NCBI RefSeq assembly: GCF_028898845.1
Contig: NZ_CP118574.1
Span: 1,302,001-1,366,000 of the forward strand
DNA length: 64,000 nt
Direction of reading: 5' to 3'
From: Streptomyces sp. WZ-12
GTDB lineage: Bacteria; Actinomycetota; Actinomycetes; Streptomycetales; Streptomycetaceae
This document shows, piece after piece, positions 34,502 through 49,308 of the stretch. The position numbers were made by a program, and so were the translations under genes. How positions within the stretch are numbered: position 1 is the first letter of the stretch; every line of letters begins with the position of its first letter. The notes beneath the pieces were generated by a model. The model made no database searches, was not told the origin of the DNA, and saw only the letters and a program-made list of their open reading frames with translations.

Positions 34502-36397
34502 TCACTTGATGATCCCCCTTCGCTTGAGATCGATTTCTGCTTGTTCTGGATGCGCCTGGTAGTAGGGATCATTGGCGGTAGCCGTCTTCAGGTCTTTGAA
34601 GTAGAGAGATCCCCAGGACCTTCCGCCTCTATCTGGGTCTGTGGGTATCTCTAGTCCCTTGATGGTCTCGGCCATGAGGTCCGCGGTTAGCTTCATAGCC
34701 TTGTCCCCATGCTCTTCAGGCACCGAGAACACGACTTCGTCATGGATTGGGAGTCGCATGTAGGGAGTAAGGCCGGATTCATGCATCCGAACCAGGGCCC
34801 GGCATGTGATGTCACGGGATCCGGACTGGATGAAGTAGTTGAGGGCGCTGTATGCGCGGTTTCGATCCACATAGAGGCGCCGACCGGAGGCCGTTTCGAT
34901 GTGTCCGAAGCGCCTGGCCTGCTCTGTGAGCCGTTCAGCGAGCCTTTTGACCCCCGGATAGGTCTCCCAGAAGCCTTCGACGGCCTTCCTGGCGAGTTCT
35001 TCCGTGACGCCGGCCTGTTCGTGGACTGCCTTCCAGCCCCCGCCGAAGCAGACGCAAAAATTGGTGGTCTTCCCGGCCTTCCTGGGGACGCCGGCAGCGT
35101 CGGCGGTGATCTGGTGGAGGTCATCGCCGTTCTTGAAGGCCCGGAGCATGGTCTTGTCGCCGCTGTGGGCGGCCAGGAACCGCAGCTCCATGTTCGAGTA
35201 GTCCGTGCTGAGGGCTATGTGGCCTTCATCGGCGACGAAGCAGCGCCGAATCTCCCAGTCACCAGACGGGAGGGTCTGTGCTGGGACTCCCGTGATGCTT
35301 TGCCGGGCCGTACGTGCCTGGATGGAGTTGATTGCGGGGTGAACCCGACCTTCAGCGTCCCGCAGGTCCAGGAAGCTCCGCAGCCATGTCTGACGCTTCT
35401 TGCGGGCGCTCTTGGCCTTGTCGATGGCGCCGGCCAGGAGGCGAACCATGTCGGGGTACTCGGGTGCTCGAACCTTGTCGAGGAGTGCCCCGTCCACCTT
35501 GAGCTTCCCTGTCTTGGTCAGGGCAAATGCGGACAAATTAACACCGAGATCACGCAGCGCCTCGGCGCACTGGTCGGTGCTCCATGGGTTCTCGCAGCCA
35601 AGGTCACGTGCTACCTGGGTCCACTCGGCCTCTTGGGCCTCCAGCTCCCGAGCAAGGCCCTCCGTGTACTCCACGTCCAGGAGGAAGCCGCGGCGGCTCA
35701 TGTACGAGCAGACCTCAGCCACCTTGTGCTCGAACGAGGTGAGCTTGCGGGCCGAGGCCGGCACGAGACGCTTGAGCTTGGCAGCGAGGCGGTACGCCAG
35801 GATCGGATCCAGGCCGGCGTAGGTCAGGTATCCGGGGTGGAAGGTATCGACTTCCTTCCAGACCTGGGCCTTCGTGGTCTTGAGGCTCTTGGCGATTTCC
35901 GCCATGGATCCCTTAACCCGGAGGGCTATGTCCGAGTCGATGTACTGGCCCGTGAGGGCTTCCAGGGAGTGACCAGGGCAGCCGTCCTTGACGCCGCGGG
36001 AGTCCACCAGGTGGGCGAGGATCTTCGTGTCGGTGACCTTGGGCCAGACCTCTTCCATGGCAAGATCGGTGCTGGCATCGAGCACCAGAAGGTCATAGGT
36101 GCCGTTCTGGAAGACGAGCTTGTGCACGTAGCGGATAGCACCCACGGCGGCGGCAAGAAGGGCCTCAGACAGCTCTACCGGTACTACGTAGGCTTCGGTG
36201 GCATTGCCGAACTGGACGAGCCGCAGACGGAAGTCGTCGGCCCACCAGTCGAGCCCGGTGGTCTCGGTATCGCAACCGAGGCCCTTCTTGTTTGCTTTGA
36301 CCCAGGAGACGAACTCAGGGATATCAGCATCGGACTCCAGGACGTTGATGACGGCTACGTCTCCAGCGATCTTTCGAGCCAGACACATGCTTATCAC
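34502..36397 (-). CDS. Phage family A DNA polymerase with 3'-5' exonuclease domain
   Basis: About 631 aa. The DnaQ-like exonuclease domain begins with CDTETTGLDWWADDFR (near residue 44) and has its later metal Asp in TYAGLDPILAYR. The polymerase domain shows motif A STDYSNMELRFLAAHSGD, the O-helix region GVPRKAGKTTNFCVCFGGG and motif C LPIHDEVVFSVPEE. GTG 36397 follows AAGGGAG; an ATG nine bases later is possible. It replicates phage DNA. It heads a leftward unit preceded by the repeat at 36420-36435. Confidence 0.92.
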   Translation of the reverse strand: MISMCLARKIAGDVAVINVLESDADIPEFVSWVKANKKGLGCDTETTGLDWWADDFRLRLVQFGNATEAYVVPVELSEALLAAAVGAIRYVHKLVFQNGTYDLLVLDASTDLAMEEVWPKVTDTKILAHLVDSRGVKDGCPGHSLEALTGQYIDSDIALRVKGSMAEIAKSLKTTKAQVWKEVDTFHPGYLTYAGLDPILAYRLAAKLKRLVPASARKLTSFEHKVAEVCSYMSRRGFLLDVEYTEGLARELEAQEAEWTQVARDLGCENPWSTDQCAEALRDLGVNLSAFALTKTGKLKVDGALLDKVRAPEYPDMVRLLAGAIDKAKSARKKRQTWLRSFLDLRDAEGRVHPAINSIQARTARQSITGVPAQTLPSGDWEIRRCFVADEGHIALSTDYSNMELRFLAAHSGDKTMLRAFKNGDDLHQITADAAGVPRKAGKTTNFCVCFGGGWKAVHEQAGVTEELARKAVEGFWETYPGVKRLAERLTEQARRFGHIETASGRRLYVDRNRAYSALNYFIQSGSRDITCRALVRMHESGLTPYMRLPIHDEVVFSVPEEHGDKAMKLTADLMAETIKGLEIPTDPDRGGRSWGSLYFKDLKTATANDPYYQAHPEQAEIDLKRRGIIK

Positions 36398-36419
36398 TTT
36401 GGTTCGTCTCCCTTCAGCG

Positions 36420-36435
36420 GTACAGCTTCCAAGTT
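36420..36435 (-). repeat. Early-unit repeat copy 1
   Basis: Leftward strand reads AACTTGGAAGCTGTAC; a TTTACC patch lies 15 bases further upstream of TGTAC. It stands 22 bases upstream of the DNA polymerase start. Confidence 0.7.
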
Positions 36436-36449
36436 GCCGGGTAAATGTG

Positions 36450-36710
36450 TTAGGCGTCGCCGCCCATGGCGTGGGTCCAGAAGTCTGAGGCAAGCCCCTC
36501 GGCCAAGTCGTGACTCAGACCGGCCTCCAGGGCGGCCTTCTTGACTTCGCCGGCCTGCTTGATGGTGAGGATGGCGACTCGGGCCGCCTTGGCAAGGGCG
36601 TCGGCAGCAACCTGTTCGGTGACCTCTTCGGCGTCAACGACGCTGTTCAGGTACTCGGCGAACTCCTTGATGTCGTCCTCGCTGAAGCCGTCATCATTCT
36701 TCTTGAACAT
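36450..36710 (-). CDS. Small acidic helical protein, unknown
   Basis: 86 aa, ATG after TAAGGAG. Acidic, helix-rich (DDIKEFAEYLNSVVDAEEV, AEGLASDFWTHAMGGDA). It is the last gene of the ThyX-led unit. No family recognised. Confidence 0.7.
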   Translation of the reverse strand: MFKKNDDGFSEDDIKEFAEYLNSVVDAEEVTEQVAADALAKAARVAILTIKQAGEVKKAALEAGLSHDLAEGLASDFWTHAMGGDA

Positions 36711-36718
36711 GTGTCTCC

Positions 36719-37378
36719 TTAGTACGGGCCATTGACGTTATCGAGGCCGCCATACACGTGATAGGCGTAGTTGGCGCAGGCGCACAGGTTCGCCACCGGG
36801 TCATAGACGTCCCAGGAGGTTCCTGCAACGTGGTATGCCTGAAAGGTCGAGTCGATCGCCTGGAGCAGTCCCTTGGACGGGTGGCCGGCTGCCGCATTGC
36901 TATCCGTCAGGTTGATAGCCCGCGGGTTTCCACTGGACTCACGCATGATGTTCCGATAGAAGCCGTTGTACGTCGGCGCCGGGATCCCATGCGCCTTGAG
37001 AGTGGCTTGAGCCTGACGTATCCACCCGTCGAGGTTGTTCGGGTAGCTCTGGACTATCGGCGCGTGCTGCGTCTTGAGCTGGACCCTGTGCCGCTGGTAC
37101 AGACGATGCGGCGGCTTCGGCTTGGGCTTGCTCTTCCGCTTATGACCTTCGGCCTGCTGCTTGTCCGCCTGGTGGCTGATCGAGTGCTCCAGGTCGTGAC
37201 CGGGGGCGGTAAAGGCCGCAAGGTGCGGCGAGCCCTCAACCTCGGGCTTCGGCTTGTGCGCCGGCAGCGCAGCAGCTACGGCAGCAGTGCCCAGCAGAGC
37301 GGTTGTTGCAGTGGTGGAGATGACCGTCTTACGGAAGGCGGTCCGCTGAGCACTGACCTGTACTCGGCGCTTACTCAC
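36719..37378 (-). CDS. Membrane-anchored or secreted lytic transglycosylase-like protein
   Basis: About 219 aa. A hydrophobic segment near the start (VISTTATTALLGTAAVAAAL) suggests a signal or anchor. A Lys/Pro-rich linker (KRKSKPKPKPP) leads to an SLT-like domain: RNIMRESSGNP with the catalytic Glu, SNAAAGHPSKGLLQAIDSTF and DPVANLCACANYAYHVYGG. It should cleave or bind peptidoglycan. GTG 37378 overlaps the stop of the preceding gene (GTGAGTAA). Being placed among leftward early genes rather than with tail or lysis genes is unusual. Confidence 0.75.
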   Translation of the reverse strand: MSKRRVQVSAQRTAFRKTVISTTATTALLGTAAVAAALPAHKPKPEVEGSPHLAAFTAPGHDLEHSISHQADKQQAEGHKRKSKPKPKPPHRLYQRHRVQLKTQHAPIVQSYPNNLDGWIRQAQATLKAHGIPAPTYNGFYRNIMRESSGNPRAINLTDSNAAAGHPSKGLLQAIDSTFQAYHVAGTSWDVYDPVANLCACANYAYHVYGGLDNVNGPY

Positions 37379-37568
37379 TGATAGCCCCAAGCACAGAGGC
37401 GAGCTGGTGGTGGATCTCGCCGAGCTTGTTCAGGTGGTTGGGGTCGATGACGGTCGTCATGTCAGTGGTGTGGATCTCCTTGGCGAGAAGATCGTGGAGG
37501 AGCTTAACGGCCTCGGGGCTCAGCTTGCTGGTGATGGTGAAGTGCTTCTGGACATCGATGTTCATCAT
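37371..37568 (-). CDS. Small protein of unknown function
   Basis: 65 aa starting MMNIDVQKHFTITSKLSPEA; ATG 37568 follows GAGAGGGA. It overlaps genes on both sides. Likely helical (KLLHDLLAKEIHT, LNKLGEIHHQLASVL). No family recognised. Confidence 0.65.
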   Translation of the reverse strand: MMNIDVQKHFTITSKLSPEAVKLLHDLLAKEIHTTDMTTVIDPNHLNKLGEIHHQLASVLGAISE

Positions 37569-37978
37569 GAGGTTCCCTCTCGGTTGTTGATATTCATTGA
37601 CCCCCCTGGCCATATGACCCGTGCTATTCCTGCGGAGCGGATGAGCTTTGTGCAGTCGCGGCACGGTGCGCGCGTTATGTAGATCGTGGCCCCCTGGCAA
37701 TCAGCCCAGTTTGCGTACAGGAGGCAGTTAGCTTCCGCGTGCGTCTCTTCGCATGCCTCGTATCCGGAGCCTGAGGGTTGGTCGGAGTTGCAGCGTGAGC
37801 ACTCTCCTGCCATGCAAGAGGGCCCGCCCGGCGGGGTGCCGTTGTATCCAGTTGATCGAATCCTCTTGTCGGCACCGACGAGTACTGCGCCGACCTGCGA
37901 GCGGTGACAGTCACCTCGCGCTGAGACTGCCTTAGCTATGCCGAGAAAGTAGCTTTGCCAGTCGAGACGTTGACTCAC
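37565..37978 (-). CDS. Deoxycytidylate (dCMP) deaminase
   Basis: 137 aa with the cytidine/dCMP deaminase zinc site: HAEAN (His ligand and catalytic Glu) and APCRDC (two Cys), plus the CxxC-rich insertion ECSRCNS typical of dCMP deaminases. It makes dUMP for ThyX, encoded immediately upstream with an overlapping stop/start. Confidence 0.9.
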   Translation of the reverse strand: MSQRLDWQSYFLGIAKAVSARGDCHRSQVGAVLVGADKRIRSTGYNGTPPGGPSCMAGECSRCNSDQPSGSGYEACEETHAEANCLLYANWADCQGATIYITRAPCRDCTKLIRSAGIARVIWPGGSMNINNREGTS

Positions 37979-38670
37979 GGAGCTATCCGGCCGTGATGGT
38001 TGAAGAGTTCCTGTGTGATGGGGCAGACCTTCTTGAAGTCGTCTTCCATCTGGTGAGCAACCATCTCGATCTCATGGAGAGGGAAGGTGGGAACGGTGGT
38101 GTTCTCGTTGGTGGCTCGGAGACTCAGGAAGTTCATGAGGCTTCGGGCGTTCATGGTCACGTAGAACGAGGTGTAGAGGCCGAGAGGGAGGACGTTCCGG
38201 GCGACTTCTCGGGCAACTTCATGCTTGAGAAGGTGCTCGTAGGATCCCCAGGCTTCGGTAGCCATGCGCATGTGCTCGGCGCGAGTGGCCTGCATCTGCT
38301 TGTAGTCGCCTTGCCTAAAGGTGTAGGCGCCGGGCTTTCCTACCTGCCTGAGTGGACGCTCAACGGAGGGGACGTAGAAGACAGGCTCAAGAACCTTGTA
38401 CCGACCCGAGACTTCGTTGTAGGAGGCGATGCGATGCCGGAAGAACTCTCGGGCCACGAAGATAGGGCACTCAATCTTGAACTGGAGCGTGACGGCCTCG
38501 AAGGGGCTGCCGTGCCGGTCCCGCATGAGCATGTTGAGAAGGCCGCGGTCCTTCTTGTCGTCGCCGGAGGTTCCGGAAGAGACTCGTGCGGCTCGGATGA
38601 TGGAGTGGTCTCCGCCCATGGAGTCGATGAGTTCGACTGTCATGTCATGGCGGAAGGTGATCGCCGTCAA
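37975..38670 (-). CDS. thyX: Flavin-dependent thymidylate synthase
   Basis: 231 aa ThyX that methylates dUMP to dTMP with FAD and methylenetetrahydrofolate. The signature RHRxxSxNExSxR is present as RHRIASYNEVSGRY. TTG 38670 (TAITFRHDMTVELI) is chosen because GGAAAGAGA precedes it and phage ThyX proteins often carry this N-terminus. A GC hairpin (38694-38712) lies in the leader between the repeat and the start. Confidence 0.93.
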   Translation of the reverse strand: MTAITFRHDMTVELIDSMGGDHSIIRAARVSSGTSGDDKKDRGLLNMLMRDRHGSPFEAVTLQFKIECPIFVAREFFRHRIASYNEVSGRYKVLEPVFYVPSVERPLRQVGKPGAYTFRQGDYKQMQATRAEHMRMATEAWGSYEHLLKHEVAREVARNVLPLGLYTSFYVTMNARSLMNFLSLRATNENTTVPTFPLHEIEMVAHQMEDDFKKVCPITQELFNHHGRIAP

Positions 38671-38719
38671 GGAATATCTCTTTCCAAGGGGGCGGGGGCT
38701 TTGAGGGCCCCCACCTTTA

Positions 38720-38735
38720 ATACAGCTTACAAGTT
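38720..38735 (-). repeat. Early-unit repeat copy 2
   Basis: Leftward strand AACTTGTAAGCTGTAT with TTTGCT upstream; 49 bases before the ThyX start, at the head of the thyX to 36450 unit. Confidence 0.7.
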
Positions 38736-38752
38736 GGCGAGCAAATGAAAAG

Positions 38753-39244
38753 TTAGACGAAGATCGGCTTCTCGTTGGAGTTCCGGTCAGTCGAGCACCA
38801 CATCTTGTACGGCTTCCCGGAAGCCTTACCAACTCCCTCTCGGTAGACGAAGTGCGGGGGAACGTTGGCGGGTCGATCCGGCTGAGCAGACGAGGCGGGC
38901 TGCTTCATACCACCACCGCCACCGAACGCCTGCTTGGCGGGAGCCTGGTACTTGGCATGGAAGAACGAGGCGGACTTACCTGTGATCTCGATCAGTTCGG
39001 CAAGCTCAACCTTGAAGTCCCGCATGGCCTTGAGGGCGTCGGGGATGTCGGCGCCGTCGATGGTGATCCACGGAGCCTCGTAGCCGACACCCCCCTTGAG
39101 GGTGACTCGGACTCGATTGATATCCATGCAGTCTCGCGAAATGGAGTTCACAGGCGACTTCTCCTCGGTGGAGGCTTCGGGGGTAGCGATGGGGGCGTCT
39201 TCCCAGGGGGAAGAGGTGACGGCGAACGGGTCAGGCGCGGTCAT
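38753..39244 (-). CDS. Phage protein of unknown function, possible ssDNA-binding protein
   Basis: 163 aa. A central beta-rich domain (INRVRVTLKGGVGYEAPWIT) is followed by a Gly-rich linker (AFGGGGGMKQ) and a short C-terminal domain (FVYREGVGKASGKPYKMWC). It is a single-gene unit among replication genes. The layout recalls phage ssDNA-binding proteins, but no diagnostic motif is visible. Confidence 0.7.
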   Translation of the reverse strand: MTAPDPFAVTSSPWEDAPIATPEASTEEKSPVNSISRDCMDINRVRVTLKGGVGYEAPWITIDGADIPDALKAMRDFKVELAELIEITGKSASFFHAKYQAPAKQAFGGGGGMKQPASSAQPDRPANVPPHFVYREGVGKASGKPYKMWCSTDRNSNEKPIFV

Positions 39245-39273
39245 GCGGGGACTCCCTTACTTCTTCTTCAAGA

Positions 39274-39289
39274 GTACAGCTTACAAGTT
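39274..39289 (-). repeat. Early-unit repeat copy 3
   Basis: Leftward strand AACTTGTAAGCTGTAC with TTTGCG 17 bases upstream of TGTAC; 29 bases before the start at 39244. Confidence 0.7.
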
Positions 39290-39302
39290 GGATGTCGCAA
39301 AT

Positions 39303-41315
39303 TCAGATGGGGCATGCGCCCGACGCGCACTCCTCATCGAATCCAGACTCCACGGACTCACCGAGTTCAGACACGAGCTGGTTGTACTCGTCGCCTGTGA
39401 TCGGCTCGTACGGGGCCTGGTCTCGGGACAGGGCGGGGAAGATGGTTGACCCCTTCAGATGCCCCAGGTGGCCGGACAGCACATTCATGAAGTCGTCCAG
39501 GCCGTACCGCTCAGGGTCGATGTTCACGGTATATGAGACGGCGTTGTCGGCCCAGTGCTCCTGATACATCTCCTGGAAGGCCAGCATCTCTTCGACGGCC
39601 AAGTCCTGCTGGGACACTACGAGTTGAGGGTAAGGCGCCTTGTCCATGAGGGGGTCCTTTGTCGGGATCTCCACGACAGACGTGTTGGCGGCGTACATGC
39701 AGGGCTCGACCTGGTGCCCCTTGGCCTTGTACTCCTCTACCTGCCGGCTCTCGTGGGGATCAACGTCCGAGAAGCGGATACGCCGGATGAAGTGCTTGGA
39801 GAAGGGTGCATGGATGCCTTCTCCCGAGACTCCACAGAGCTTACTGATAGAGCCGGTAGGGGCAATGGTGGTCATCTTCACCGGCATCGGGATACGAAGC
39901 TCGTGGCAGTACGCCTTAGCGGACTTCTCCACCTCTTCCTTCAGGTCCATGAGGGTAACGTCGAATCCGAGCGAGTCAGCATGCCGATAGTCGATCCCTG
40001 ACATCGCCAGGAAGTCCGCCACACCGAAGTGCCCGACACCGATACGCCTGTTCTTGTTGATGATGTCCTGAGACTTACCGTCCTTCACTCCGGAGTGTGT
40101 TGCCCGGATCAGGTAGCGCGTCATGAGCCGGTGGGCCTCCAGCATCCCGTCCCAGTCCTCCACGTAGGCCGAGAGGTTCACGTGGCCCAGGCAGCACGGT
40201 TCCCACGGGTTCAGCGTGATCTCTGCACACGGGTTGGTGGTGTAGGTACCGTCAGGCTCACCCGCGGCACTGAGGGAAGAGTCCCAGAAGCCGGGTTCAC
40301 CGTTCTCCAGCATGCCCTTACACATGGCTAGGTAGACGGCCTGGGCCTTCGCCTGTCGAAGGGTCTTCTCCTCTCCGTTCCGGATGATGTTTACGAACTC
40401 GTCGTCAATCTCAACGCTGATGTTCGTGGTCCAGTGCTTAGACATGTCCTTCTTCGAGTTGATGAACTCAAAGATGTCGTAGTCGTTCCAATGCATGATG
40501 GACATGCGGGCCGAGCGGCGGACACCACCAGAGACGATGCACTGGGCTATCTCGTGGTCGATCTCCATGGCCTGAAGACCAGTCATCGGCTTGCCAGACA
40601 GCTTGACGTCTCGACTGAGGATCTTGCCTACGTGGACGAGCATCTGCGCGAACGGCTCGGGGCCGCTGGCGGTGCCGCCGAACTTCTTGAGGGCTGCCCC
40701 CTTGTGTCGGACTCGGCTCACGTCGTACACGCGGTTGGTGTTCTTGGCTGCCCGGTGTGCGGTCTCGATGAGGTCACCCAGGGCAGCGGCCCATCCTTCT
40801 CGGCTGTCGGCTACCTCGTAGGCGCCGGCCCAGGTATGGGAGTAATCGGTGCTGATGAGGCCGGCCGCAGCGAGATCCAGGTAGTCAGGGTGCTCAGGGT
40901 CGCACACGATGTGCACCGTCACCGGCGTGACGATGTACGGGTAGTTCTGGAAGTAGCGGCTGGAGTAGTTCGCTCCCACTCCCCCGCCTTCGGCGAGACG
41001 GAGAAGAGTGAAGCGGAAGTGCTCCGCGGGGTCTCCGGGGATCCAGCCTGCTGACCAACAGTTGTTGTTTGCGTAGTCGTTGACGCCACTGGACTTCAGG
41101 TGACGCCCCGCGGGCATGATCTTGAAGTTCTGGATCAGGTCGATCAGGCGCTCTCGCTCACCGTCCTCGATGAACCGATCCGCAACGAGGGAGAGGTTCC
41201 CATCTACGACACGCTGAACCGTCTGCGGCCAAGTCTCCTTGGAACCGTCGGGAAGCTCACGACTGTAGGTGCGGTAGTAGACGGTCTCGGCGGTCTCGTT
41301 AACGAACTGACTCAC
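39303..41315 (-). CDS. nrdJ: Class II (B12-dependent) ribonucleoside-triphosphate reductase
   Basis: 670 aa, one chain, matching adenosylcobalamin-dependent reductases. Visible motifs are NNCWSAGW, the catalytic loop NPCAEITLNPWEPCC, TTIAPTGSISKLCGVSGEG and the C-terminal redox pair CASGACPI. It makes dNTPs without oxygen or a second subunit, relying on host cobalamin. It overlaps the thioredoxin-like gene by ATGA, which should reduce it. Confidence 0.93.
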   Translation of the reverse strand: MSQFVNETAETVYYRTYSRELPDGSKETWPQTVQRVVDGNLSLVADRFIEDGERERLIDLIQNFKIMPAGRHLKSSGVNDYANNNCWSAGWIPGDPAEHFRFTLLRLAEGGGVGANYSSRYFQNYPYIVTPVTVHIVCDPEHPDYLDLAAAGLISTDYSHTWAGAYEVADSREGWAAALGDLIETAHRAAKNTNRVYDVSRVRHKGAALKKFGGTASGPEPFAQMLVHVGKILSRDVKLSGKPMTGLQAMEIDHEIAQCIVSGGVRRSARMSIMHWNDYDIFEFINSKKDMSKHWTTNISVEIDDEFVNIIRNGEEKTLRQAKAQAVYLAMCKGMLENGEPGFWDSSLSAAGEPDGTYTTNPCAEITLNPWEPCCLGHVNLSAYVEDWDGMLEAHRLMTRYLIRATHSGVKDGKSQDIINKNRRIGVGHFGVADFLAMSGIDYRHADSLGFDVTLMDLKEEVEKSAKAYCHELRIPMPVKMTTIAPTGSISKLCGVSGEGIHAPFSKHFIRRIRFSDVDPHESRQVEEYKAKGHQVEPCMYAANTSVVEIPTKDPLMDKAPYPQLVVSQQDLAVEEMLAFQEMYQEHWADNAVSYTVNIDPERYGLDDFMNVLSGHLGHLKGSTIFPALSRDQAPYEPITGDEYNQLVSELGESVESGFDEECASGACPI

Positions 41316-41572
41316 TTAGCGAACTCCTTGACAACGTTCTCGAACTCGACTCGGTTAGGGACACCGACCATCCGGTAAACCTCTTCAGCATCCTTTTCGA
41401 GGATGATGGTCGGCACTGCGGTCACATTCCGATCTCGCGCCGCCTCGGGATCAACAGACACATCAAGGACACTAAGGATTAGCCCCAGATCCCCGGCAAT
41501 GTCGGCCACGATGGGGCCTGCCTTGCGGCAGGGGCCACAAGTTGGACTCTTGAACATGGTGATCTTAGGCAA
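41312..41572 (-). CDS. Thioredoxin-like protein (NrdH/Trx type)
   Basis: 86 aa thioredoxin fold with CGPC active site (SPTCGPCRKAGPIV) and cis-Pro in VTAVPTIIL. It probably supplies electrons to the adjacent reductase. Confidence 0.9.
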   Translation of the reverse strand: MPKITMFKSPTCGPCRKAGPIVADIAGDLGLILSVLDVSVDPEAARDRNVTAVPTIILEKDAEEVYRMVGVPNRVEFENVVKEFAK

Positions 41573-42113
41573 GGAGATCTTCCCCCTTTCGGGACGTCTT
41601 CGTTTCGATAGCGGAATGCCGGTTGATCCAGGAAGTGAGGATGTCTACTCCTCGATACGTGGCCTTCTTGTCGCCAGGGCTCGGGAACGGGCGCCCTAGG
41701 ACGATGTGCTCGAACATGAGCTTCTTGTACCTGTCCGGGATCTTCTTTAGTGCTCGCTCTACATCCATCTTTGCGAGCAGCGGGGAGCTGTCGCTGTTGA
41801 TGTGGGAGAAGGACTCCGGGGGTTCGGTGAGGGAGCGAAGTGCAGCTCTCACTTCTTCGGGCGTGTACCAGTACTGACAGGTGAACATGTCCTGGTAGGT
41901 GCGTTCACCGGATGCGTATCGGGTAGCGACCTTCTTGAAGATTCCGTGCTTTACGGCGTCAGTCTTGCCCTGCCAGGCGTTGATGTTCTCGGCGGCCCAG
42001 AGGACGATTTCCTGCTCAACGTCCTCCACTTCAACGACAGGCCACCGCTTAGCGATCTGCGTTGCCTGCACTCGGGCAATCTCCTGGGCTTCAGTCCAGT
42101 TGATGTCAGTCAT
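41565..42113 (-). CDS. Sigma-70-like phage protein
   Basis: 182 aa. The N-terminal half resembles sigma region 2 (VVEVEDVEQEIVLWAAENIN, then a KKVATRYASGER helix); the C-terminal half resembles region 4 (ALKKIPDRYKKLMFEHIVLG, then a possible helix-turn-helix to TSWINR). It overlaps both neighbours. If real, it could direct RNA polymerase to phage promoters, possibly the repeats that head early units. Divergent, so only moderate confidence. Confidence 0.5.
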   Translation of the reverse strand: MTDINWTEAQEIARVQATQIAKRWPVVEVEDVEQEIVLWAAENINAWQGKTDAVKHGIFKKVATRYASGERTYQDMFTCQYWYTPEEVRAALRSLTEPPESFSHINSDSSPLLAKMDVERALKKIPDRYKKLMFEHIVLGRPFPSPGDKKATYRGVDILTSWINRHSAIETKTSRKGEDLLA

Positions 42114-42871
42114 TAGTAGCGCTGCCCTTCGACCACAAAAGATCCGTTTCCGTTGACGGGGATAATGTGCGGGGTGACGTTCGAGCCATCGACGTAGAGG
42201 AGTCCGAAGGCCATCTGCCAGTTACTGAGTCCGGCACCGCCGAGGTAGCCGGCCTTCTTCACGTCCATGAGGTGACCGACTTCGACGCCGGTCAGCTTCT
42301 TGGAAGCGAACTCCCCCGATGATTCATTGGTGACCGCGGCTCGATGGGTGTGCCCCATGACGACGGACTTACCGAACTTCTTGGCCGCGTTGATGGCTGT
42401 ACCACCTGCATAGCGGGCAAGGTTGATCCCTCGTGCATGCCCATGGGTGGCTATCCATCCAGGAGCGAAGTCGTACTTCAGGGGCTCGAAGTCCATCCCG
42501 AGGTCATCCAGGCACAAGAGGTTCTGTTCCTGGAAGGCGTCTTCGTCGTAAATAGCGGGACAGCGGTCAACGAGGTACTTGTGCGGACGCTCGCCATGGT
42601 TGGATCCGAGAAGCGTGTACTTGCCGTCATAGACGGCCCGCACGGGCTCAAGGTGGTTCTTGATCGTGTAGGCGGCTTCTTGCTTGACGGTCATGCCGTA
42701 CTCAGCTCGCTTGCCGGCGGACCAGCGGGCCGGCGCGGTGTAGTCGGTGATGTCGCCAATGTTGATGACCTCGTCCGGCTGGTAGTCGCCCAGGAAGCGA
42801 ATCAGATTCTTATTCGCCTTGTTGTGCTCCAAGGGCATCTGCAAGTCCGAGATAACTACGATGCGCTTCAC
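42113..42871 (-). CDS. Calcineurin-like metallophosphoesterase
   Basis: 252 aa with the binuclear metal motifs VISDLQM, NIGDITDY, GSNHGERP, IATHGHARG and VMGHTHRA. It hydrolyses phosphomono- or diesters, possibly DNA ends or nucleotides. Its stop and the next start overlap as TAATG. Confidence 0.88.
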   Translation of the reverse strand: MKRIVVISDLQMPLEHNKANKNLIRFLGDYQPDEVINIGDITDYTAPARWSAGKRAEYGMTVKQEAAYTIKNHLEPVRAVYDGKYTLLGSNHGERPHKYLVDRCPAIYDEDAFQEQNLLCLDDLGMDFEPLKYDFAPGWIATHGHARGINLARYAGGTAINAAKKFGKSVVMGHTHRAAVTNESSGEFASKKLTGVEVGHLMDVKKAGYLGGAGLSNWQMAFGLLYVDGSNVTPHIIPVNGNGSFVVEGQRY

Positions 42872-43269
42872 TTACTTGCCTCCAGGCGCCCAAGCTCGAA
42901 CTCGACGTTCTTCATGGCCTTCTCAAGGTCTTGCGTGGGGTCGGCGGTCTTGAGTCCAGCTCGCCACAGGTACTTGATTGCGGACCCTATGAAGAAGGGG
43001 AAGTGTCCGACGATTTCCTTGCACTCAATGCCGCTCGGGTGGCTGGTGTAGTGACTGGGGTGCTCTACCGCTTCCGGCTCTTCGGGGAGTTCCGGGTAGT
43101 TGAGTTCAAGCTCACCTTCGGTGAAGCAGATGGTGTTCCCACCTACGGCGTTGTAGAACTCGACTTCGTAACGGAGGTGATAGGTGGACCAGACGGCAAC
43201 AATCATTCCTTCAAGGCCCGCATAGTCGGTCTTGACGGCCCTGACGTGGTCGCCAACTGTGTACTTCAT
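42868..43269 (-). CDS. DUF3310-domain protein
   Basis: 133 aa. The N-terminal part looks KOW/SH3-like (YTVGDHVRAVKTDYAGLEG); the C-terminal part is DUF3310 (HPSHYTSHPSGIECKEIV, FIGSAIKYLWRAG, DLEKAMKNVEFEL). Common in phage replication regions; role not known to me. Confidence 0.82.
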   Translation of the reverse strand: MKYTVGDHVRAVKTDYAGLEGMIVAVWSTYHLRYEVEFYNAVGGNTICFTEGELELNYPELPEEPEAVEHPSHYTSHPSGIECKEIVGHFPFFIGSAIKYLWRAGLKTADPTQDLEKAMKNVEFELGRLEASK

Positions 43270-43916
43270 TAGCTAAGGCCAATCTTTGCTCGTACGGATT
43301 CCGGGCCTTCGGCCAGGAGGAGAGAGTTAACGTCGTGCCCGCTGAAGGGGATGACTTTCGCGTTACTGAGCTGTGCGGCTACCTTGTCTGCGAATTCGAG
43401 TCCTTGGCCGGCGTCGTCTCCGTCTGCGAAGAGATAGACGGTTTCGTATCCGAAGAAAGCCGGGCGAAAGTGCTCTCTCCAGCCGGAGACTCCTGCGACT
43501 CCGACAGCCGGGATTCCGCAAGCCTCGGCAGCAAGAACGTCCATTTCTCCTTCGCAGATCGCAACGTAGGAAGACTCCCCTATGAGCGCCTGCGTATTGA
43601 AAAGGTGGGGCTTGACTCCGGGGAGCCCGAAGTATTTGCCGTGTCCGAAGTCCTTACAGTCGTGGTCTTCGATACACCTGAATCGGATGGTGGTGGTGTA
43701 GTCCGGTCCGGCCGGTCGGAGGTAGGGGATGGATAGCCAGCCCTTTATTCGTTCGTGCCCCGGGGCTGGCTCACTCACATAGCCGATTCCGAAACGTTCT
43801 GCGACTTGGCCCAGTCCGCGCTTTGCCATGTACGCCCCGGCGGGACTTGCCCTGTACGCCTGCGCGTACATCTGCGCTTCGGCAGCCAAAGCGTTCTTCT
43901 GCAATGTTGCGGGCAT
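43269..43916 (-). CDS. DNA primase, TOPRIM part
   Basis: 215 aa with TOPRIM motifs ICEGEMDVLAAEACG (Glu) and YLFADGDDAG (DxD-type) and a preceding RFGIGYV segment typical of DnaG-like primases. It overlaps the zinc-finger primase gene by 146 bases in another frame. It primes phage DNA replication together with that protein, either as a partner or as a fused product. Confidence 0.85.
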   Translation of the reverse strand: MPATLQKNALAAEAQMYAQAYRASPAGAYMAKRGLGQVAERFGIGYVSEPAPGHERIKGWLSIPYLRPAGPDYTTTIRFRCIEDHDCKDFGHGKYFGLPGVKPHLFNTQALIGESSYVAICEGEMDVLAAEACGIPAVGVAGVSGWREHFRPAFFGYETVYLFADGDDAGQGLEFADKVAAQLSNAKVIPFSGHDVNSLLLAEGPESVRAKIGLS

Positions 43917-44133
43917 CTGTGAAGCCGACGCCTTCCATTCTCATGATCATGTCGAATGAGTCTTCCGAGATCCCGCAGGCAAAACATGTCCACCTTTGAT
44001 CTTCGGTATTGACGCTTGCGCTGGGGTTTGTTTCGTCGTGCTCAAGGCACAGGATCTTCGTCCACCGGTGCCGAGGAGAGATGTCGGTCCCGTAGTAGTG
44101 AGCGATGACCCTCGTAATGTCCGGCTTACTCAT
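43771..44133 (-). CDS. DNA primase, CHC2 zinc-finger part
   Basis: 120 aa. The zinc-ribbon region is ILCLEHDETNPSASV with TCFACG (C-x2-H...C-x2-C), then SFDMIMRMEGVGFTDARNI. After about residue 82 the sequence turns into an Arg-rich tail (GKSRRGVHGKARTGPSRR) where it overlaps the TOPRIM gene, which looks like out-of-frame translation. A Shine-Dalgarno GGAGG for ATG 44133 lies inside repeat copy 4. Confidence 0.82.
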   Translation of the reverse strand: MSKPDITRVIAHYYGTDISPRHRWTKILCLEHDETNPSASVNTEDQRWTCFACGISEDSFDMIMRMEGVGFTDARNIAEERFGCRSADVRAGVQGKSRRGVHGKARTGPSRRTFRNRLCE

Positions 44134-44137
44134 GCCG

Positions 44138-44153
44138 GTACAGCCTCCAAGTT
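44138..44153 (-). repeat. Early-unit repeat copy 4
   Basis: Leftward strand AACTTGGAGGCTGTAC. It is only 4 bases from the primase ATG and supplies its GGAGG. It heads the seven-gene primase-to-reductase unit. Confidence 0.7.
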
Positions 44154-44403
44154 AGAAGGGAGCAAAAGGCGACTTGATGGCGCGACGGGCACGAAGGCGG
44201 TCGAGTCGAGCCTTGTCCTCCGCGGTCTGCTTGCGGACCGTCATGGGCATCTTGTAGTGGCGGTAAGGCTGCTTCTGCTCTTCACCGTCGGTGTAGGAGT
44301 ACTTCACGACATCCTTCTCAAGGCGGGACGTCATCCGGCGACCAGAGACGGCCTTGAGGTGATGCGCCGAGGTGAAGCCGTACACAGAGTCGAGATGAGC
44401 CAT
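44152..44403 (-). CDS. Small basic protein of unknown function
   Basis: 83 aa, basic (ARLDRLRARRAIKSPFAPF at the end). Follows the endonuclease VII-like gene by 27 bases in the same unit. No family recognised. Confidence 0.65.
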   Translation of the reverse strand: MAHLDSVYGFTSAHHLKAVSGRRMTSRLEKDVVKYSYTDGEEQKQPYRHYKMPMTVRKQTAEDKARLDRLRARRAIKSPFAPF

Positions 44404-44430
44404 AACCGCGGAAGCTACCTAACTTACTCG

Positions 44431-44871
44431 TTACTTAGAGTGGTCTTTGTGAAGCCGTACACCGATGACTCTCGGCGCCGGCGGGTCATTGAGATACTGA
44501 TAGGCGCTAAGCGCTATCTCGGGATTGTCTCTAAGCCCTCTAGCCAAGAGCTGACGGTTACACCGGGCACATAGAAGGCCCCGCACTTGCCCTGTCTTGT
44601 GGCAGTGGTCTACGTCGAGACGCTGACTTCTGGTCTGCTTGCAGATGGAGCAAGACCCGCCCTGCTCCTTTAGGAGCTTGTCATATTCACCGGGGAGGAG
44701 ACCATAGGTCTCCGTGACCCGAGATTCGTGTATGGACTTAGAGCGGGTTTTCTTTCGGCAAGAAGAACATGTCTTGCCTCTTGGGGTGAAGAACCTTTCG
44801 GATCGGTTCTTCTCACAGCTTCCGCAGAAGCGATACCCCTTCCGGGGTTTCCCCCTTGCTTGTACTTCCAT
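44431..44871 (-). CDS. Recombination endonuclease VII-like HNH nuclease
   Basis: 146 aa. N-terminal zinc-ribbon-like CGSCEKNRSERFF and CSSCRKK are followed by the endonuclease VII core CSICKQ, LDVDHCHKTGQVRGLLCARC. This family resolves DNA junctions or nicks DNA; it could be a replication/packaging helper or a homing nuclease. Confidence 0.87.
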   Translation of the reverse strand: MEVQARGKPRKGYRFCGSCEKNRSERFFTPRGKTCSSCRKKTRSKSIHESRVTETYGLLPGEYDKLLKEQGGSCSICKQTRSQRLDVDHCHKTGQVRGLLCARCNRQLLARGLRDNPEIALSAYQYLNDPPAPRVIGVRLHKDHSK

Positions 44872-44885
44872 TCTCTCACACTTCC

Positions 44886-44901
44886 GTACAGCTTACAAGT
44901 T
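44886..44901 (-). repeat. Early-unit repeat copy 5
   Basis: Leftward strand AACTTGTAAGCTGTAC with a seven-T run upstream; 14 bases before the nuclease start at 44871. Confidence 0.7.
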
Positions 44902-44906
44902 TGGCT

Positions 44907-45728
44907 CTAAAAAAATTCGTCGTTGACCTCGGCCACGGTGAGGCTGTTGGTGTCGAACCTGTACGAGACGAACGAGTTCCCGGAAGGGTCTACGAAGCCT
45001 TCTCGATTCTTGACCGTGCTGACATGGATGGTGCTGTTGTCCATGTCGTCCACTTCCTTATGGATGGTGAGGATCATGGAGGGTACTCGACCAATCTTGC
45101 CCTTCACGCCAGACAGGGGAATCGGCTTCAGGCCGTCCGACCACTCCCCTGTGACGTGATGCAGGGCGAGAACATGAGCGTTCGTCTCCCGCGCCATGCT
45201 GTTGAGGTAGTCGCACATGTTCTCCAGGCTGAAGGTGAACGACTCTGCGTCGGCTGAGTTGTTCTCCAGGTTGGTGATGTTGTCCACCACGATCAGGTGC
45301 GGGAACAATCCGCGGCCGTAGACCTCTTCATAGCAAGCCACGTCCCGCTCTAGCTCGTCGAGGCTGGGTTGCGCCGAGACGTTGAACCGGAGCCACCAGC
45401 GGTCTGCCAGGGCCTTCTTCACGTCACCCAGGTCGTCTTCCCGGACCTTGCGCTTCATGACCTTGGAGGGAACTCCGGTGAGCATCGTCCCGGCCCTGGC
45501 AAGCTGCGTGGCGGCGTTGGAGTCCGCCGAGAGGTACAGGGTCGGCCGGTTGGCGTGGATGGCCAGGAGGAGCGAGAACATGCTCTTAAACGTGCCGGGG
45601 CCGGCGGCGATGATGGAGAACTCTCCCCGCCGGAACTGCGTCTCGCGCTTCTCCAGCCCAGGGAAGGGGCTGGGCAGTGGCTCGCCGGCCGCACCCTTGA
45701 TCGTGGTCATCTGACTAAGACTGAACAA
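44907..45728 (-). CDS. DnaB/RecA-like helicase ATPase
   Basis: 273 aa, one RecA-fold domain. Walker A is AAGPGTFKSMF, Walker B is HLIVVDNIT, and a later HVLALHHVTG element fits the DnaB/Sak4-type ATPases. It lacks the DnaB N-terminal domain, so it is either a minimal replicative helicase or a Sak4-like annealing ATPase. TTG 45728 follows GGAAGG. Confidence 0.83.
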   Translation of the reverse strand: MFSLSQMTTIKGAAGEPLPSPFPGLEKRETQFRRGEFSIIAAGPGTFKSMFSLLLAIHANRPTLYLSADSNAATQLARAGTMLTGVPSKVMKRKVREDDLGDVKKALADRWWLRFNVSAQPSLDELERDVACYEEVYGRGLFPHLIVVDNITNLENNSADAESFTFSLENMCDYLNSMARETNAHVLALHHVTGEWSDGLKPIPLSGVKGKIGRVPSMILTIHKEVDDMDNSTIHVSTVKNREGFVDPSGNSFVSYRFDTNSLTVAEVNDEFF

Positions 45729-45748
45729 CTCAACCTTCCACTTCCGCG

Positions 45749-45764
45749 ATACAGCTTACAAGTT
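45749..45764 (-). repeat. Early-unit repeat copy 6
   Basis: Leftward strand AACTTGTAAGCTGTAT with TTTACT 15 bases upstream of TGTAT; 20 bases before the helicase start. Confidence 0.7.
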
Positions 45765-45776
45765 CGCCAGTAAAAA

Positions 45777-46622
45777 TTAGGCAGCGGCTTCGGCGAGGAA
45801 GTCACGGATTCGGGTGCGAAGCCATTCGACGCCCTTGGCGCTTACGAGGGTCGTGGAGCGCGTGTGCTTCTTGCCCCAGCGGTCGATGTACGGCTCTTCG
45901 AAGATGACCTTGAAGAGGTCGTCCCGCATGCACCACTGGAGCGGCTTGTATCCCTTGTGACGCTTACCGTCCTTGGTCAGGATCGACATGTCCTGGAGGA
46001 GCTTGTAGAGGCTGTTTCGGCCCAGACCATCGGTCACGTCTCGGAGGAGCCGGGTGACCTCCACGAAGTCCATCCAGCCATCGGAGTCCATGACGGCCTG
46101 GTACGTCTCCAGCTTGGGAGCCGCCGCCTCAAGCTCCTTCGCGGCGGCCTGGGCCAGGGCCTCGGCCTTGAGCCGGCCCTCGTGCTCCTCGGCGGCTGCG
46201 CGCAGGGCCTCGGCGTAGGTCTGGGGAATCTGCTGCTGAACCAGCTCGGCTTCTCGGGTCTTCACGGCGAAGTACGTCTGCGCCGCGGCGATCTCGGGCT
46301 TACGGGGGTCACCGTTCATGGCGATCATGTAGCAGGCATATCGGCTGAGGTGGAAGTCGTGATCCGGCACCAGGCGTTCACCGAAACCAACCTTCACCAG
46401 CTGCGGGACCTCCCGAATATTGGCGTGACCTGCGGTTTCTCCCTGGACGTTGGCGATGGCGAGCCGGGCTCGGTCGATGGCCTTCTTCGCATCTTCCCAG
46501 CGGGAGTAGTTGAAGGTGGACCCCATCAGCAGCTCTCGGGCCGACCAGTGCTCGCCCTGGCCGTCAACCTTGCGGATGGCGTCGAACGGGCTGGCATCGG
46601 CCTGGGTGAACTTCTCGATCAA
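45777..46622 (-). CDS. Phage antirepressor: DinD-like N-terminus, KilAC C-terminus
   Basis: 281 aa. Residues 1-125 match the DinD/BRO type ([54 protein letters not shown]); a coiled-coil Ala/Glu stretch (140-175) leads to a KilAC domain ([41 protein letters not shown]). Such proteins counteract repressors in phage switches. It is a single-gene unit with its own repeat. Confidence 0.85.
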
Positions 46623-46671
46623 AACAGTCTCCTTGGGTATGCGGTCGGCGGGCCACCGACCGAGATTTACG

Positions 46672-46687
46672 GTACAGCCTACAAGTC
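46672..46687 (-). repeat. Early-unit repeat copy 7
   Basis: Leftward strand GACTTGTAGGCTGTAC; 49 bases before the antirepressor start at 46622. Confidence 0.68.
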
Positions 46688-47456
46688 AGGAGGCATAATT
46701 ACAGGACGGCTTCACGGTGCAAGCAAAGCAGTGGGAGCCGGGGTTGGGGATGAAGACTTCGTTCTTAATGCCGCGGTCGAGCATGGCGTACAGCTCGGCG
46801 AGCCAGTCACGCGTCACGTAGCGGAGGTCTACCGGCTCACTGAGACCGCCAGTCTTTGCCATGTACCAGTCTCCGTAGTTGACCTCAACGCCGTACAGCT
46901 CTTCAATGGCGATCTTGTATGTGGCGAGCTGGAAGAGGCTCCGCGTGGTGCCGGTCTTGAGGTCTCGCACTACGAGGCCCCGCTCGGGGTGCTCGATGAT
47001 CTGGTCAATGAAGCCGACGACAGCAACGCCGTCCAGGTCGAGGCGGAACTCAAGCTCGATGGCTGCCTGGCCGTCCGGTGTGGTCCAGATGCGGTCAGGG
47101 CTCTGCTGGGCCCAGGCGATGTAGTCCCGAGTCTGCTGGGCGCCTACGTCGAGCCTGCGCTTGATGTCGGTCTCGGGCTTGGTGCGACCGCCGGCCATCC
47201 ACATGTAGGGCTCGGGCTCCTTGTCGAGGGCGGCCTCGATGCCCATGTCGTATTCGTGCTCGAAGAAGCCGATCACGGTCTCAGGGCTCAGCGTGCGCCC
47301 GTGGCGCTCGTACTGCTCGATGGCGGCATGGAATGCCTTGCCGTGCTCGAACCAGGCTGCTTGCCGCTGTGGGGCCCGCTCTCGCCGCTGTAGGCGCCAC
47401 TGATGGGCGCACTGCGCGTAGGTGGTGTACTGCGATACCGAGTAGTGCTCAGACAA
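46686..47456 (-). CDS. Cas4/RecB-like PD-(D/E)XK exonuclease
   Basis: 256 aa. The nuclease core is VVGFIDQIIEHPERGLVVRD with DLKTG (D...DxK); a QLATYKIAIEEL helix supplies the usual Gln/Tyr motif. Cys16 and the C-terminal cluster CFACTVKPSC could bind a 4Fe-4S centre as in Cas4/AddB. TTG 47456 directly follows the previous stop. It probably processes DNA ends in phage recombination. Confidence 0.85.
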   Translation of the reverse strand: MSEHYSVSQYTTYAQCAHQWRLQRRERAPQRQAAWFEHGKAFHAAIEQYERHGRTLSPETVIGFFEHEYDMGIEAALDKEPEPYMWMAGGRTKPETDIKRRLDVGAQQTRDYIAWAQQSPDRIWTTPDGQAAIELEFRLDLDGVAVVGFIDQIIEHPERGLVVRDLKTGTTRSLFQLATYKIAIEELYGVEVNYGDWYMAKTGGLSEPVDLRYVTRDWLAELYAMLDRGIKNEVFIPNPGSHCFACTVKPSCNYAS

Positions 47457-47810
47457 TTAGGGGTCCCTCTTCGCGTAGTAGGTGACGGTGCATTCAGGTG
47501 CCCCGGGAAGGCACTGCGCTGTGTTCCGGTGCCGGAATTCTGTGATCTTGTCCATGTCGCTGAGGAGTCCTATGCGGTCCTCGATGATCTTTAGGTCTTG
47601 CTGGGAGACGGTTGGAGAAGCAGTGACGGTGTAGACCGTCCCCAGTTCTCTCACCTCGGCGTCTACGATCACGGTCGCTGCTCTGCGATAGATAGTCGAG
47701 CAGTCAACTATCTTCCCGAGCGCCAATCCCATCAGCCCAAAGGCCCACATGGCTATCCGGCCTGCTTCCTCAAGATCGACATAATCGAGGGTTTCGGCTA
47801 GGACAAGCAT
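47457..47810 (-). CDS. Protein of unknown function
   Basis: 117 aa starting MLVLAETLDYVDLEEAGRIA, with one hydrophobic helix (MWAFGLMGLALG) that may insert in or contact the membrane. The frame is open further upstream, but that part contains the repeat and a terminator, so ATG 47810 is preferred. Leads the unit with the Cas4-like nuclease. Confidence 0.6.
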   Translation of the reverse strand: MLVLAETLDYVDLEEAGRIAMWAFGLMGLALGKIVDCSTIYRRAATVIVDAEVRELGTVYTVTASPTVSQQDLKIIEDRIGLLSDMDKITEFRHRNTAQCLPGAPECTVTYYAKRDP

Positions 47811-47855
47811 CCCTTTGGACTCTCTCTCTGGTGTTAACGAGCCGTACGCACCACC

Positions 47856-47871
47856 GTACAGCATCCAAGTC
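47856..47871 (-). repeat. Early-unit repeat copy 8
   Basis: Leftward strand GACTTGGATGCTGTAC; 45 bases before the start at 47810 and just after a leftward terminator. Confidence 0.68.
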
Positions 47872-47890
47872 AGATTACACCATGAAAAAG

Positions 47891-47924
47891 CCCCTGCCGG
47901 GAAGTTGATCACCCTCGGCAGGGG
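47891..47924 (-). terminator. Leftward intrinsic terminator
   Basis: CCCCTGCCG (47891-47899) pairs with CGGCAGGGG (47916-47924). On the leftward strand a T-run follows. It ends the single-gene unit 47970-48503. Confidence 0.85.
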
Positions 47925-47969
47925 TCGTGATGGAACCTTAATGATTCTGAAGATCGAATAAAAAGTTGC

Positions 47970-48503
47970 TTAGGACAACTTAGGCGGGAGTCTGAAGAGA
48001 TCAAGGTCAGCGGGATCCGGCTTCGCAACGCTCTCTGGCCAGCGAATCACAAGATCCTCATCTTGTTCGGTTCGAGGAGTCAGCTTCCAGCCCTCTTCCC
48101 AGTCGTAGACCATGACCTGGCCCTGGAGCCGTCCCCGCCAGTTCATGAGGAGCGCGCCGCGGCGTACGGGGAGGTCTTCGCCGGCACGTTCCGTCAGGTG
48201 GTCTCGAAGCCGCTGGTGAAGGGCCGAGTTGCCGTGGTCGTGGCCGGGCTCACGGCGGATCGTGTACGGGATCATCCTGACCCGTTCCTTCGACCCGACG
48301 TGGGGCTTGTAGCCGATGCTGGCGGCCTTCCACTGCACGCCCTGTTGGGTGACCTTCGCCCCGTTGATCTGGGTGTAGATCCGCGCGAGCTGACTCCAGT
48401 TGTATCCAGCCTGGTGGAGGCGCTTCAGCACGTGCCCTGAGGGCAGCTTTTCGCCTTCCTCGGGCTGCGGGAACGTGGAGAGATCCACGTGTTCGTTGCT
48501 CAT
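47970..48503 (-). CDS. Helix-turn-helix protein, candidate early regulator or repressor
   Basis: 177 aa. Residues about 25-65 (VLKRLHQAGYNWSQLARIYT, VTQQGVQWKAASIGYKP) look like a helix-turn-helix. It is the only gene of its unit, between the control region and a terminator, with a 12-bp imperfect palindrome 28-62 bases upstream of its ATG (RBS GAGGAAGG). This position suits an autoregulated phage regulator. No family recognised, so the role is inference. Confidence 0.6.
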   Translation of the reverse strand: MSNEHVDLSTFPQPEEGEKLPSGHVLKRLHQAGYNWSQLARIYTQINGAKVTQQGVQWKAASIGYKPHVGSKERVRMIPYTIRREPGHDHGNSALHQRLRDHLTERAGEDLPVRRGALLMNWRGRLQGQVMVYDWEEGWKLTPRTEQDEDLVIRWPESVAKPDPADLDLFRLPPKLS

Positions 48504-48570
48504 GCGCCTGCCTTCCTCGATCTTCAGTTGTTGATCATACGCTTTACCTTTCTGCGTATGGTCAACCACG

Positions 48571-48585
48571 GTACACCATCCAAGG
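48571..48585 (-). repeat. Early-unit repeat copy 9 (divergent)
   Basis: Leftward strand CCTTGGATGGTGTAC, the least conserved copy; 67 bases upstream of the start at 48503. Confidence 0.55.
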
Positions 48586-48843
48586 CGGAGCGTGCCGCGT
48601 TCAAGCGTCAGAGCACCCCCACCAGGTGACCTTCGCCACATCAGGGTAACCAATCGGCGTTTGTGACAAGTACGTATCTTATGTAAGAAAGAAAAGAGAG
48701 AGTAGTTACTCTATATAAGATCTCTACTTACACTCTAAGGAGCTAGATTCTACAGGGGTGTAAGTTACATAGAATCCTAGTTGATCTCCTAGTTGAGTTA
48801 GATAATTCATTTAGTTCCTCCTGGTAGAGATCCTAGGCAACCG

Positions 48844-48880
48844 AGAGGCCCAGGCCAGACATGAATCCCTGGGCCTCTCC
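48844..48880. terminator. Perfect 12-bp hairpin
   Basis: GAGAGGCCCAGG (48844-48855) pairs with CCTGGGCCTCTC (48869-48880), placed between the AT-rich control block and the late genes. It could block read-through, or be an antitermination target. Confidence 0.7.
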
Positions 48881-48987
48881 TCATTCTCCTTGGTCGGAGA
48901 TAACCGCAGATAAAGAATCACCAAGATAGCCGCCCTATGCGGCTATGGCTGGACGAGAGAATCTATCGGCCAAGGAAGGACTTACCC

Positions 48988-49308
48988 ATGCCCAGGGCAA
49001 AAATGGTCTGCATCCGTGAAGGCTGCACCAAACCAGCTACCCGCGAAGGCCGGTGCCCTGGGCATCAGCGGGAGCCCTTCAGGGGCTCGGCCTGGAGGAC
49101 GCAGAGGCCCGCAGGGTGGACGAGCACCAGGCGCAAGGTCCTGATCCGGGACAGAGGCGTGTGTGACCTCTGCGGAGGCACAGGAGCTACCGAGGTAGAC
49201 CACCTGGTCCCGCTGGCCCGCGGTGGCTCACACGACATGTCGAACCTGAGAAGCCTCCACAAGGAATGTCATCGAACCAAGACCCAGAAGGAGAGTCATG
49301 GCGGCTAG
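48988..49308 (+). CDS. HNH endonuclease
   Basis: 106 aa. Zinc-binding CIREGCTKPATREGRC is followed by the HNH core CDLCGGTGATEVDHLVPLARGG, then NLRSLHKECHRTKT. ATG follows GGAAGG. HNH nucleases directly before terminase genes commonly work with terminase in DNA packaging of cos phages, so that role is likely. Confidence 0.88.
   Translation: MPRAKMVCIREGCTKPATREGRCPGHQREPFRGSAWRTQRPAGWTSTRRKVLIRDRGVCDLCGGTGATEVDHLVPLARGGSHDMSNLRSLHKECHRTKTQKESHGG

Follow-up and report, generated by a model that had tools for sequence, protein, structure and literature searches.

Directional repeats of a Streptomyces prophage as probable stoperators of an L5-type repressor

The closest described relatives of the locus reported here are the Cluster A phages, in which a repressor (gp71 in L5; the TipsytheTRex protein of PDB entries 7r6r and 7tz1) is paired with asymmetric sites of 13–15 bp, the stoperators, which lie in gene gaps and at gene ends, mostly in one orientation and with CTTG towards the promoter. 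PMC3029335, PMC5712189, and PMC9283540 cover the consensus, intergenic placement, and orientation of these sites, and PMC3029335 gives the invariant positions as G........TCAAG, that is, CTTGA........C. In PMC10276819 the Streptomyces phage R4 is likewise said to use a repressor and stoperators, and PMC6550527 reports Cluster A-like immunity systems in groups of Gordonia, Rhodococcus, and Streptomyces phages. Here we describe a family of short directional repeats in a prophage of Streptomyces sp. WZ-12, located in a 64,000-nucleotide stretch of the chromosome (NZ_CP118574.1, positions 1,302,001 to 1,366,000; the window, whose numbering we use throughout), together with the protein encoded at 47970–48503. 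We consider it very probable that the repeats are the operator/stoperator set of this prophage, bound by this L5-type repressor and blocking leftward transcription. An earlier sequence-only reading had offered three possibilities, a phage promoter class, an operator family like the mycobacteriophage stoperators, and a translational leader; the second is now supported by repressor homology, site orientation, site placement, and the covariation of repeat and repressor.

A repeat family in the gaps of the leftward genes

A pattern search finds eight exact matches to ACTTGKADGCTGTAY in the window, all on the - strand, and a ninth copy at 48571, also on the - strand, differs from the pattern by 2 mismatches; these are the nine places that had been read from the sequence.

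36420–36434, - strand: site ACTTGGAAGCTGTAC, intergenic, ahead of the DNA polymerase gene; TTT at 36443–36445
38720–38734, - strand: site ACTTGTAAGCTGTAT, intergenic, ahead of thyX; T runs at 38743–38745 and 38748–38751
39274–39288, - strand: site ACTTGTAAGCTGTAC, intergenic, following the ribonucleotide reductase gene; TTT at 39299–39301
44138–44152, - strand: site ACTTGGAGGCTGTAC, 4 bases before a primase-region start codon; contains GGAGG; T run at 44164–44167
44886–44900, - strand: site ACTTGTAAGCTGTAC, intergenic, ahead of the endonuclease VII gene; T run at 44909–44915
45749–45763, - strand: site ACTTGTAAGCTGTAT, intergenic, ahead of the DnaB-like helicase gene; T run at 45772–45776
46672–46686, - strand: site ACTTGTAGGCTGTAC, intergenic, ahead of the KilAC antirepressor-like gene; no TTT upstream
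47856–47870, - strand: site ACTTGGATGCTGTAC, after the repressor gene and a hairpin; T run at 47885–47889, which is the hairpin tail
48571–48585, - strand: diverged site CCTTGGATGGTGTAC, with the repressor start codon 67 bases downstream

No exact match to ACTTGKADGCTGTAY occurs in 100 shuffles of the window. Since the pattern was derived from these very copies, a de novo repeat search is the fairer test, and there this repeat is the top family within the surrounding 40 kb. The remainder of the 9.5-Mb host genome holds no further exact copy. Among 392 genomes of the genus, this one has 8 exact copies and four others have one each, which we take as chance (4/391), a backward control pattern giving one match apiece in 2 genomes; an exact 15-mer search of viral contigs returned 33 loci with a single match each, also taken as chance. 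An Rfam search of the window gave no match.

The window stops within the prophage, and on the joined chromosome three more copies lie beyond it, at 84484 (-), 87012 (+), and 87139 (-) in window-extended coordinates, with 1, 1, and 2 mismatches, for a prophage total of 12. The claim that all copies point the same way is thus valid for the window (9/9) and not for the whole prophage (11/12), where 87012 is reversed. The copies at 87012 and 87139, which face inward or outward, lie where the right-hand leftward array ends, in about 2.4 kb without called genes (window-extended 86300–88700; L002:4300–6700) that could be an early promoter region.

Placement is similarly regular. The leftward genes between 34502 and 48503, hand-selected from an open reading frame list and a home-made gene caller, so that small gaps could change, leave nine gaps longer than 0 bp, eight of which hold one copy each; the 27-bp gap at 44404–44430 has none. 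The many asymmetric sites thus sit mainly in gaps, as in L5-type systems, and the notion that one copy heads every transcription unit reduces to one in nearly every gap, the blocks between copies being putative rather than established transcription units. With the start codons chosen, the copies stand 4, 14, 20, 22, 29, 45, 49, and 49 bases before them, and 67 for 48571, which bears out the 4–67 bases first estimated. Three or more consecutive T lie within 22 bases upstream of 7/9 copies (the exceptions are 46672 and 48571), in agreement with the T-rich patch that had been noticed upstream of most of them.

Both the gene order and the site orientation resemble those of mycobacteriophages. The leftward array encodes, by profile, a DNA polymerase, the thymidylate synthase ThyX, an L5-gp49-like protein, endonuclease VII, and a KilAC antirepressor-like protein and, by similarity or place relative to the Streptomyces phages Ponzi, Ibantik, and Success, a ribonucleotide reductase, a primase, a DnaB-like helicase, and a Cas4/RecB-type nuclease. 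A similar order is found in BobSwaget, Alma, and Idleandcovert, which we take to be Cluster A phages and which database records place in the genera Fromanvirus and Veracruzvirus; the replication genes are in the same order as in Cluster A. Read along transcription, the BobSwaget site is CTTGACAKCCACC, with 16/16 on one strand, and across four mycobacteriophage loci (Alma, Idleandcovert, L071, and BobSwaget) 70/74 sites are syn-oriented when up to 2 mismatches are allowed. The window site, CTTGKADGCTGTAC, carries CTTG on the same side, so that here too the CTTG end comes first.

The repressor and the sites that vary with it

Three further features of the window:

47970–48503, - strand: L5-type immunity repressor gene (177 amino acids), the proposed reader of the sites
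47884–47924, - strand: hairpin ending in a T tail, directly downstream of the repressor gene (dG -23.2 kcal/mol, z -2.65)
41565–42113, - strand: sigma-K-factor-like protein (PHROG 354), the rival reader, not favoured

The 47970–48503 protein matches PHROG 357, a transcriptional repressor family. In a tblastn search of 50,697 phage records with this protein, all 28 matched records are mycobacteriophages, at 24–29% identity, and every match falls at a gene annotated as an immunity or transcriptional repressor. A profile of 12 repressors (the window, Ibantik, Ponzi, Success, and eight other genomes of the genus Streptomyces) finds 7r6r/7tz1 among PDB sequences with E 3.2e-18 over profile positions 4–147 of 160; the next match is an unrelated-looking helix-turn-helix (HTH) regulator at E 2e-5. 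An AlphaFold2 model from 6 sequences has a predicted local distance difference test (pLDDT) score of 81.3, and Foldseek with this model returns 7r6r_A as the sole match below E 0.001 (2e-5, probability 1.00); a model made without an alignment was poor (pLDDT 43.8) and was not used. The profile match over nearly the full length and the model match both point to an L5-type repressor, with an N-terminal HTH and a Stoperator domain. Searches of viral contigs with the repressors of the window, Ponzi, and the Success type gave no match, and those with the BobSwaget and Ibantik proteins gave one locus each.

We further searched for gap repeats in Ponzi, Ibantik, and Success without using the window sequence, with five mononucleotide shuffles as control. 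Ponzi's top repeat was ACTTGAAACTGTCA, present in 7 gaps; that of Ibantik was GTTGTCACGAGACA, in 8, and that of Success AGTTGCCTCCTGGG, in 7. All three reached at least double the highest value among the five shuffles; other gap families (T-rich in Ponzi, and GC-rich) also exceeded the shuffles, and only the top family of each phage was taken. Of the 28 repeat copies in these three phages, 22 are intergenic, 2 are near a gene end, and 4 are deep in coding sequence. The three share with this prophage syntenic leftward genes, a related repressor (23–29% identical), a directional gap repeat, and upstream T enrichment, each with a repeat sequence of its own. In the 40 kb around repressor homologues in other Streptomyces genomes, the top repeat is TTGGAATGTGACA in G025 (14 copies), GTTGGGATGTGAC in G146 (13, written on the other strand), AGTTGNCAAGAGG in G259 (7), and AAGTTGATGTGCG in G035 (6). 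In all, seven relatives each have their own directional repeat starting [C/G]TTG; like places in related phages do hold directional repeats, and their sequences differ from that of the window. Two other search designs were overwhelmed: a whole-genome de novo search by codon repeats, replaced by the gap search and a near-exact search, and a search anchored on STTG by coding-like families, which came first in G259, G035, Ponzi, Success, and Ibantik, and which was not used.

Additional repeats were seen in three of these genomes. In Ponzi (L003) the T-rich repeat TTATTTCATTCCTT occupies 8 gaps; it ranks behind the stoperator-like family and exceeds the shuffles. Success (L008) carries another repeat, AGTGTCCTT[A/T/G]TC.., between several of its right-hand early genes (record positions 51749, 54111, 54655, and 55652), and G025 (L055–L056) has a second family, AGTTAGTTCATGC, at 6 places on both strands.

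Across 12 phages, a small sample whose consensus site letters were read by eye, the variable part of the site follows repressor identity (Mantel r 0.64, p 2e-4), also when partial on DnaB (0.55, p 0.001). Within the eight Streptomyces phages with a repeat, the site follows the repressor when the sigma-like protein is controlled for (0.74, p 4e-4), and it does not follow the sigma-like protein when the repressor is (-0.21, p 0.76); a tblastn search found no match to the sigma-like protein in four mycobacteriophage stretches that have such sites. These two results favour 47970–48503 over 41565–42113, which was set aside as the reader.

Several observations weigh against this assignment. The model superposes on 7r6r with a template modeling (TM) score of only 0.45 and a root-mean-square deviation of 11.8 Å, which indicates that parts match and their relative placement does not. 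No repeat family was found in the 40 kb around the repressor in G031 and G351, which carry five or six of the other tested genes as well and speak against a site set accompanying all repressors of this type; nor was any found in G291, where six other phage genes tested had no match, or in the 9.5-kb contig G167. The site has G or T (CTTGK) where Cluster A sites have an invariant A, and specificity differs between CTTGKADGCTGTAC and CTTGACAKCCACC; there are 12 copies here versus the 20–30 or more reported for Cluster A, whose sites occur in both arms, whereas no copies were found in the rightward arm here (49–74 kb). The reversed copy at 87012 and the eye-read consensus letters behind the covariation belong on the same side. 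This prophage also differs from Cluster A in its stronger upstream T-tract and its Streptomyces-type host.

Other described systems differ in their own ways. In R4, gp29 is annotated as similar to L5 gp71, and the top directional repeat of the R4 record (L009) along transcription is GTGYAAGTGWCGC, a candidate only for the published R4 sites; it has no [C/G]TTG head on that strand and no T-tract, and its CTTG is on the opposite strand compared with Cluster A and this prophage. As described, the stoperators of Rhodococcus Cluster CA have another variable half and another host. Judged from its sequence, then, the prophage is an L5-type repressor–stoperator system of the Ibantik/Ponzi/Success kind, with a site specificity of its own.

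In such a system every copy would be bound by the repressor, probably by one molecule that contacts the DNA with two reading domains, like its solved relative, and each domain would presumably read its own end of the site. In the lysogen, bound repressor would block RNA polymerase moving leftward through the replication genes, and stray transcription would thereby be cut off at nearly every gene gap. At copy 48571, above its own gene, the repressor probably controls its own synthesis; TTGGAT-17-CATACG, read by eye at this copy, is a possible repressor promoter, and the hairpin at 47884–47924 is a probable intrinsic terminator.

Nearby, the silenced array includes the KilAC antirepressor-like protein (45777–46622; Pfam ANT, PHROG 63), a candidate for lifting repression. 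The AT-rich DNA that separates the repressor gene from the rightward genes contains an 8-base inverted repeat (48726–48765), found by eye, with arms ACTTACAC at 48765–48758 and GTGTAAGT at 48733–48726, a possible site for another regulator. At the left of the prophage is an integrase gene (32932–34089) whose product has a Phage_integrase domain, of the tyrosine type; Success likewise has a tyrosine recombinase, and the integrases of Ponzi and Ibantik are serine enzymes.

Promoter and translational-leader readings

The copies precede gene blocks, and with a hairpin following the repressor gene, transcription could plausibly start anew near 47856, as would suit a phage promoter class in which the copies start these blocks as promoters for the host polymerase, with the sigma-like protein of 41565–42113 or another activator. 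In the same direction, TANNNT follows the TTG hexamer at a spacer of 17–18 in 10 of the 83 copies in eight Streptomyces phages, above other spacings, and TTG with TANNNT at 17–18 occurs in 13 of the 74 mycobacteriophage sites. Against it, none of the 12 copies here has such a -10 hexamer at a fixed spacing from the repeat, and a scan of 34400–49000 for sigma-70-like promoters found 0 versus 3.3 expected in shuffles. Were TTG the -35 element, the copies 4 and 14 bases from a start codon would leave no room, and the repeat, as seen above, does not track the sigma-like protein once the repressor is controlled for, and that protein moreover lacks a match in the site-bearing mycobacteriophage stretches. 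The promoter class is thus unsupported for most copies, and we judge it unlikely; the -10 in 10/83 copies suggests that, in relatives, a small number of copies probably serve as operators lying over promoters, unlike the majority. A literature search for a phiC31 promoter paper found none.

The repeat could also work in the mRNA close to the start codon, as the GGAGG shortly before the start codon in copy 44138 had suggested. That GGAGG is one variant of the site, however; 8/9 copies lie 14–67 bases before the start, in a distance range of 4 to 67 bases overall, and relatives retain the kind of place as the sequence changes along with the repressor. Such a translational leader is very improbable.

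A T-tract in register with the sites

We aligned the 83 copies from the eight Streptomyces phages at the first base of [C/G]TTG. T reaches 33–57% at -18 to -10, followed by G at -9 (51%), C at -8 to -6 (48–54%), and A at -2 and -1 (70–73%). T enrichment 10–18 bases upstream, in register with the site, is found in all eight phages with a repeat: the step statistic is positive in 8/8, from 0.11 (Success) to 0.44 (Ibantik), and the pooled value of 0.287 compares with a maximum of 0.086 in 5000 jittered sets. Because G025 and G146 are closely related, the eight phages represent about seven independent lineages. TTT occurs at -20 to -7 in 40/83 copies, at -40 to -27 in 8/83, and downstream in 5/83, with a range per phage from 1/6 (G035) to 8/12 (Ibantik). 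In the 74 mycobacteriophage sites the tract is weaker, with T at 0.18–0.36 at -17 to -11 over a background near 0.185, most clearly in Idleandcovert. A literature search, with most subscription journals outside its coverage, found no paper on a T-tract beside stoperators, and the in-register tract may be a new feature.

Protein roadblocks stop polymerase with the RNA end some 14 bases upstream of the obstacle, which here falls in or near the T-tract. We tentatively propose, at rather less than even confidence, that the stoperator is a two-part repressor-dependent terminator, in which the repressor stops polymerase and the T-tract lets the complex fall apart without a hairpin: a tract 10–18 bases upstream would put a weak rU:dA hybrid inside the polymerase as the repressor stops it. 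The one-sidedness of the tract would also help explain why stoperators are orientation-specific.

The tract may equally well be unrelated to stopping polymerase, and instead extend the binding site, shape the DNA, act as an UP element, or be a by-product of gene ends; we see this as an evenly balanced possibility. No hairpin precedes the tract (mean z -0.15, p 0.40, 83 copies), which agrees with such an origin and led us to reject the T-tracts as ordinary intrinsic terminators; R4, described as having stoperators, lacks the tract; and fewer than half of the copies contain TTT (the 40/83 above, with only 1/6 in G035 and 3/9 in Success). Yet it is T that is raised and not A, in register with the site in 8/8 phages, and in Ponzi, Ibantik, and Success together TTT is present in 14/28 copies versus 13.1% of windows in 80 site-free gaps (p 3e-6). 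Nor does the tract go with a -10 (Fisher p 0.51), a result that also led us to reject a clean division of the copies into promoters bearing a -10 and T-tract sites lacking it.

PMC9283540 names as a fundamental question by what means a repressor bound at a stoperator stops elongation, and why the orientation of the site is important. Sharing of an in-register T-tract by eight Streptomyces-phage site families turns the question of the elongation halt, under the proposed two-part terminator, into a simple test. The comparison also yields repressor–site pairs of differing specificity, and it places L5-type immunity, as read from these genomes, in the Ibantik/Ponzi/Success group of Streptomyces phages.

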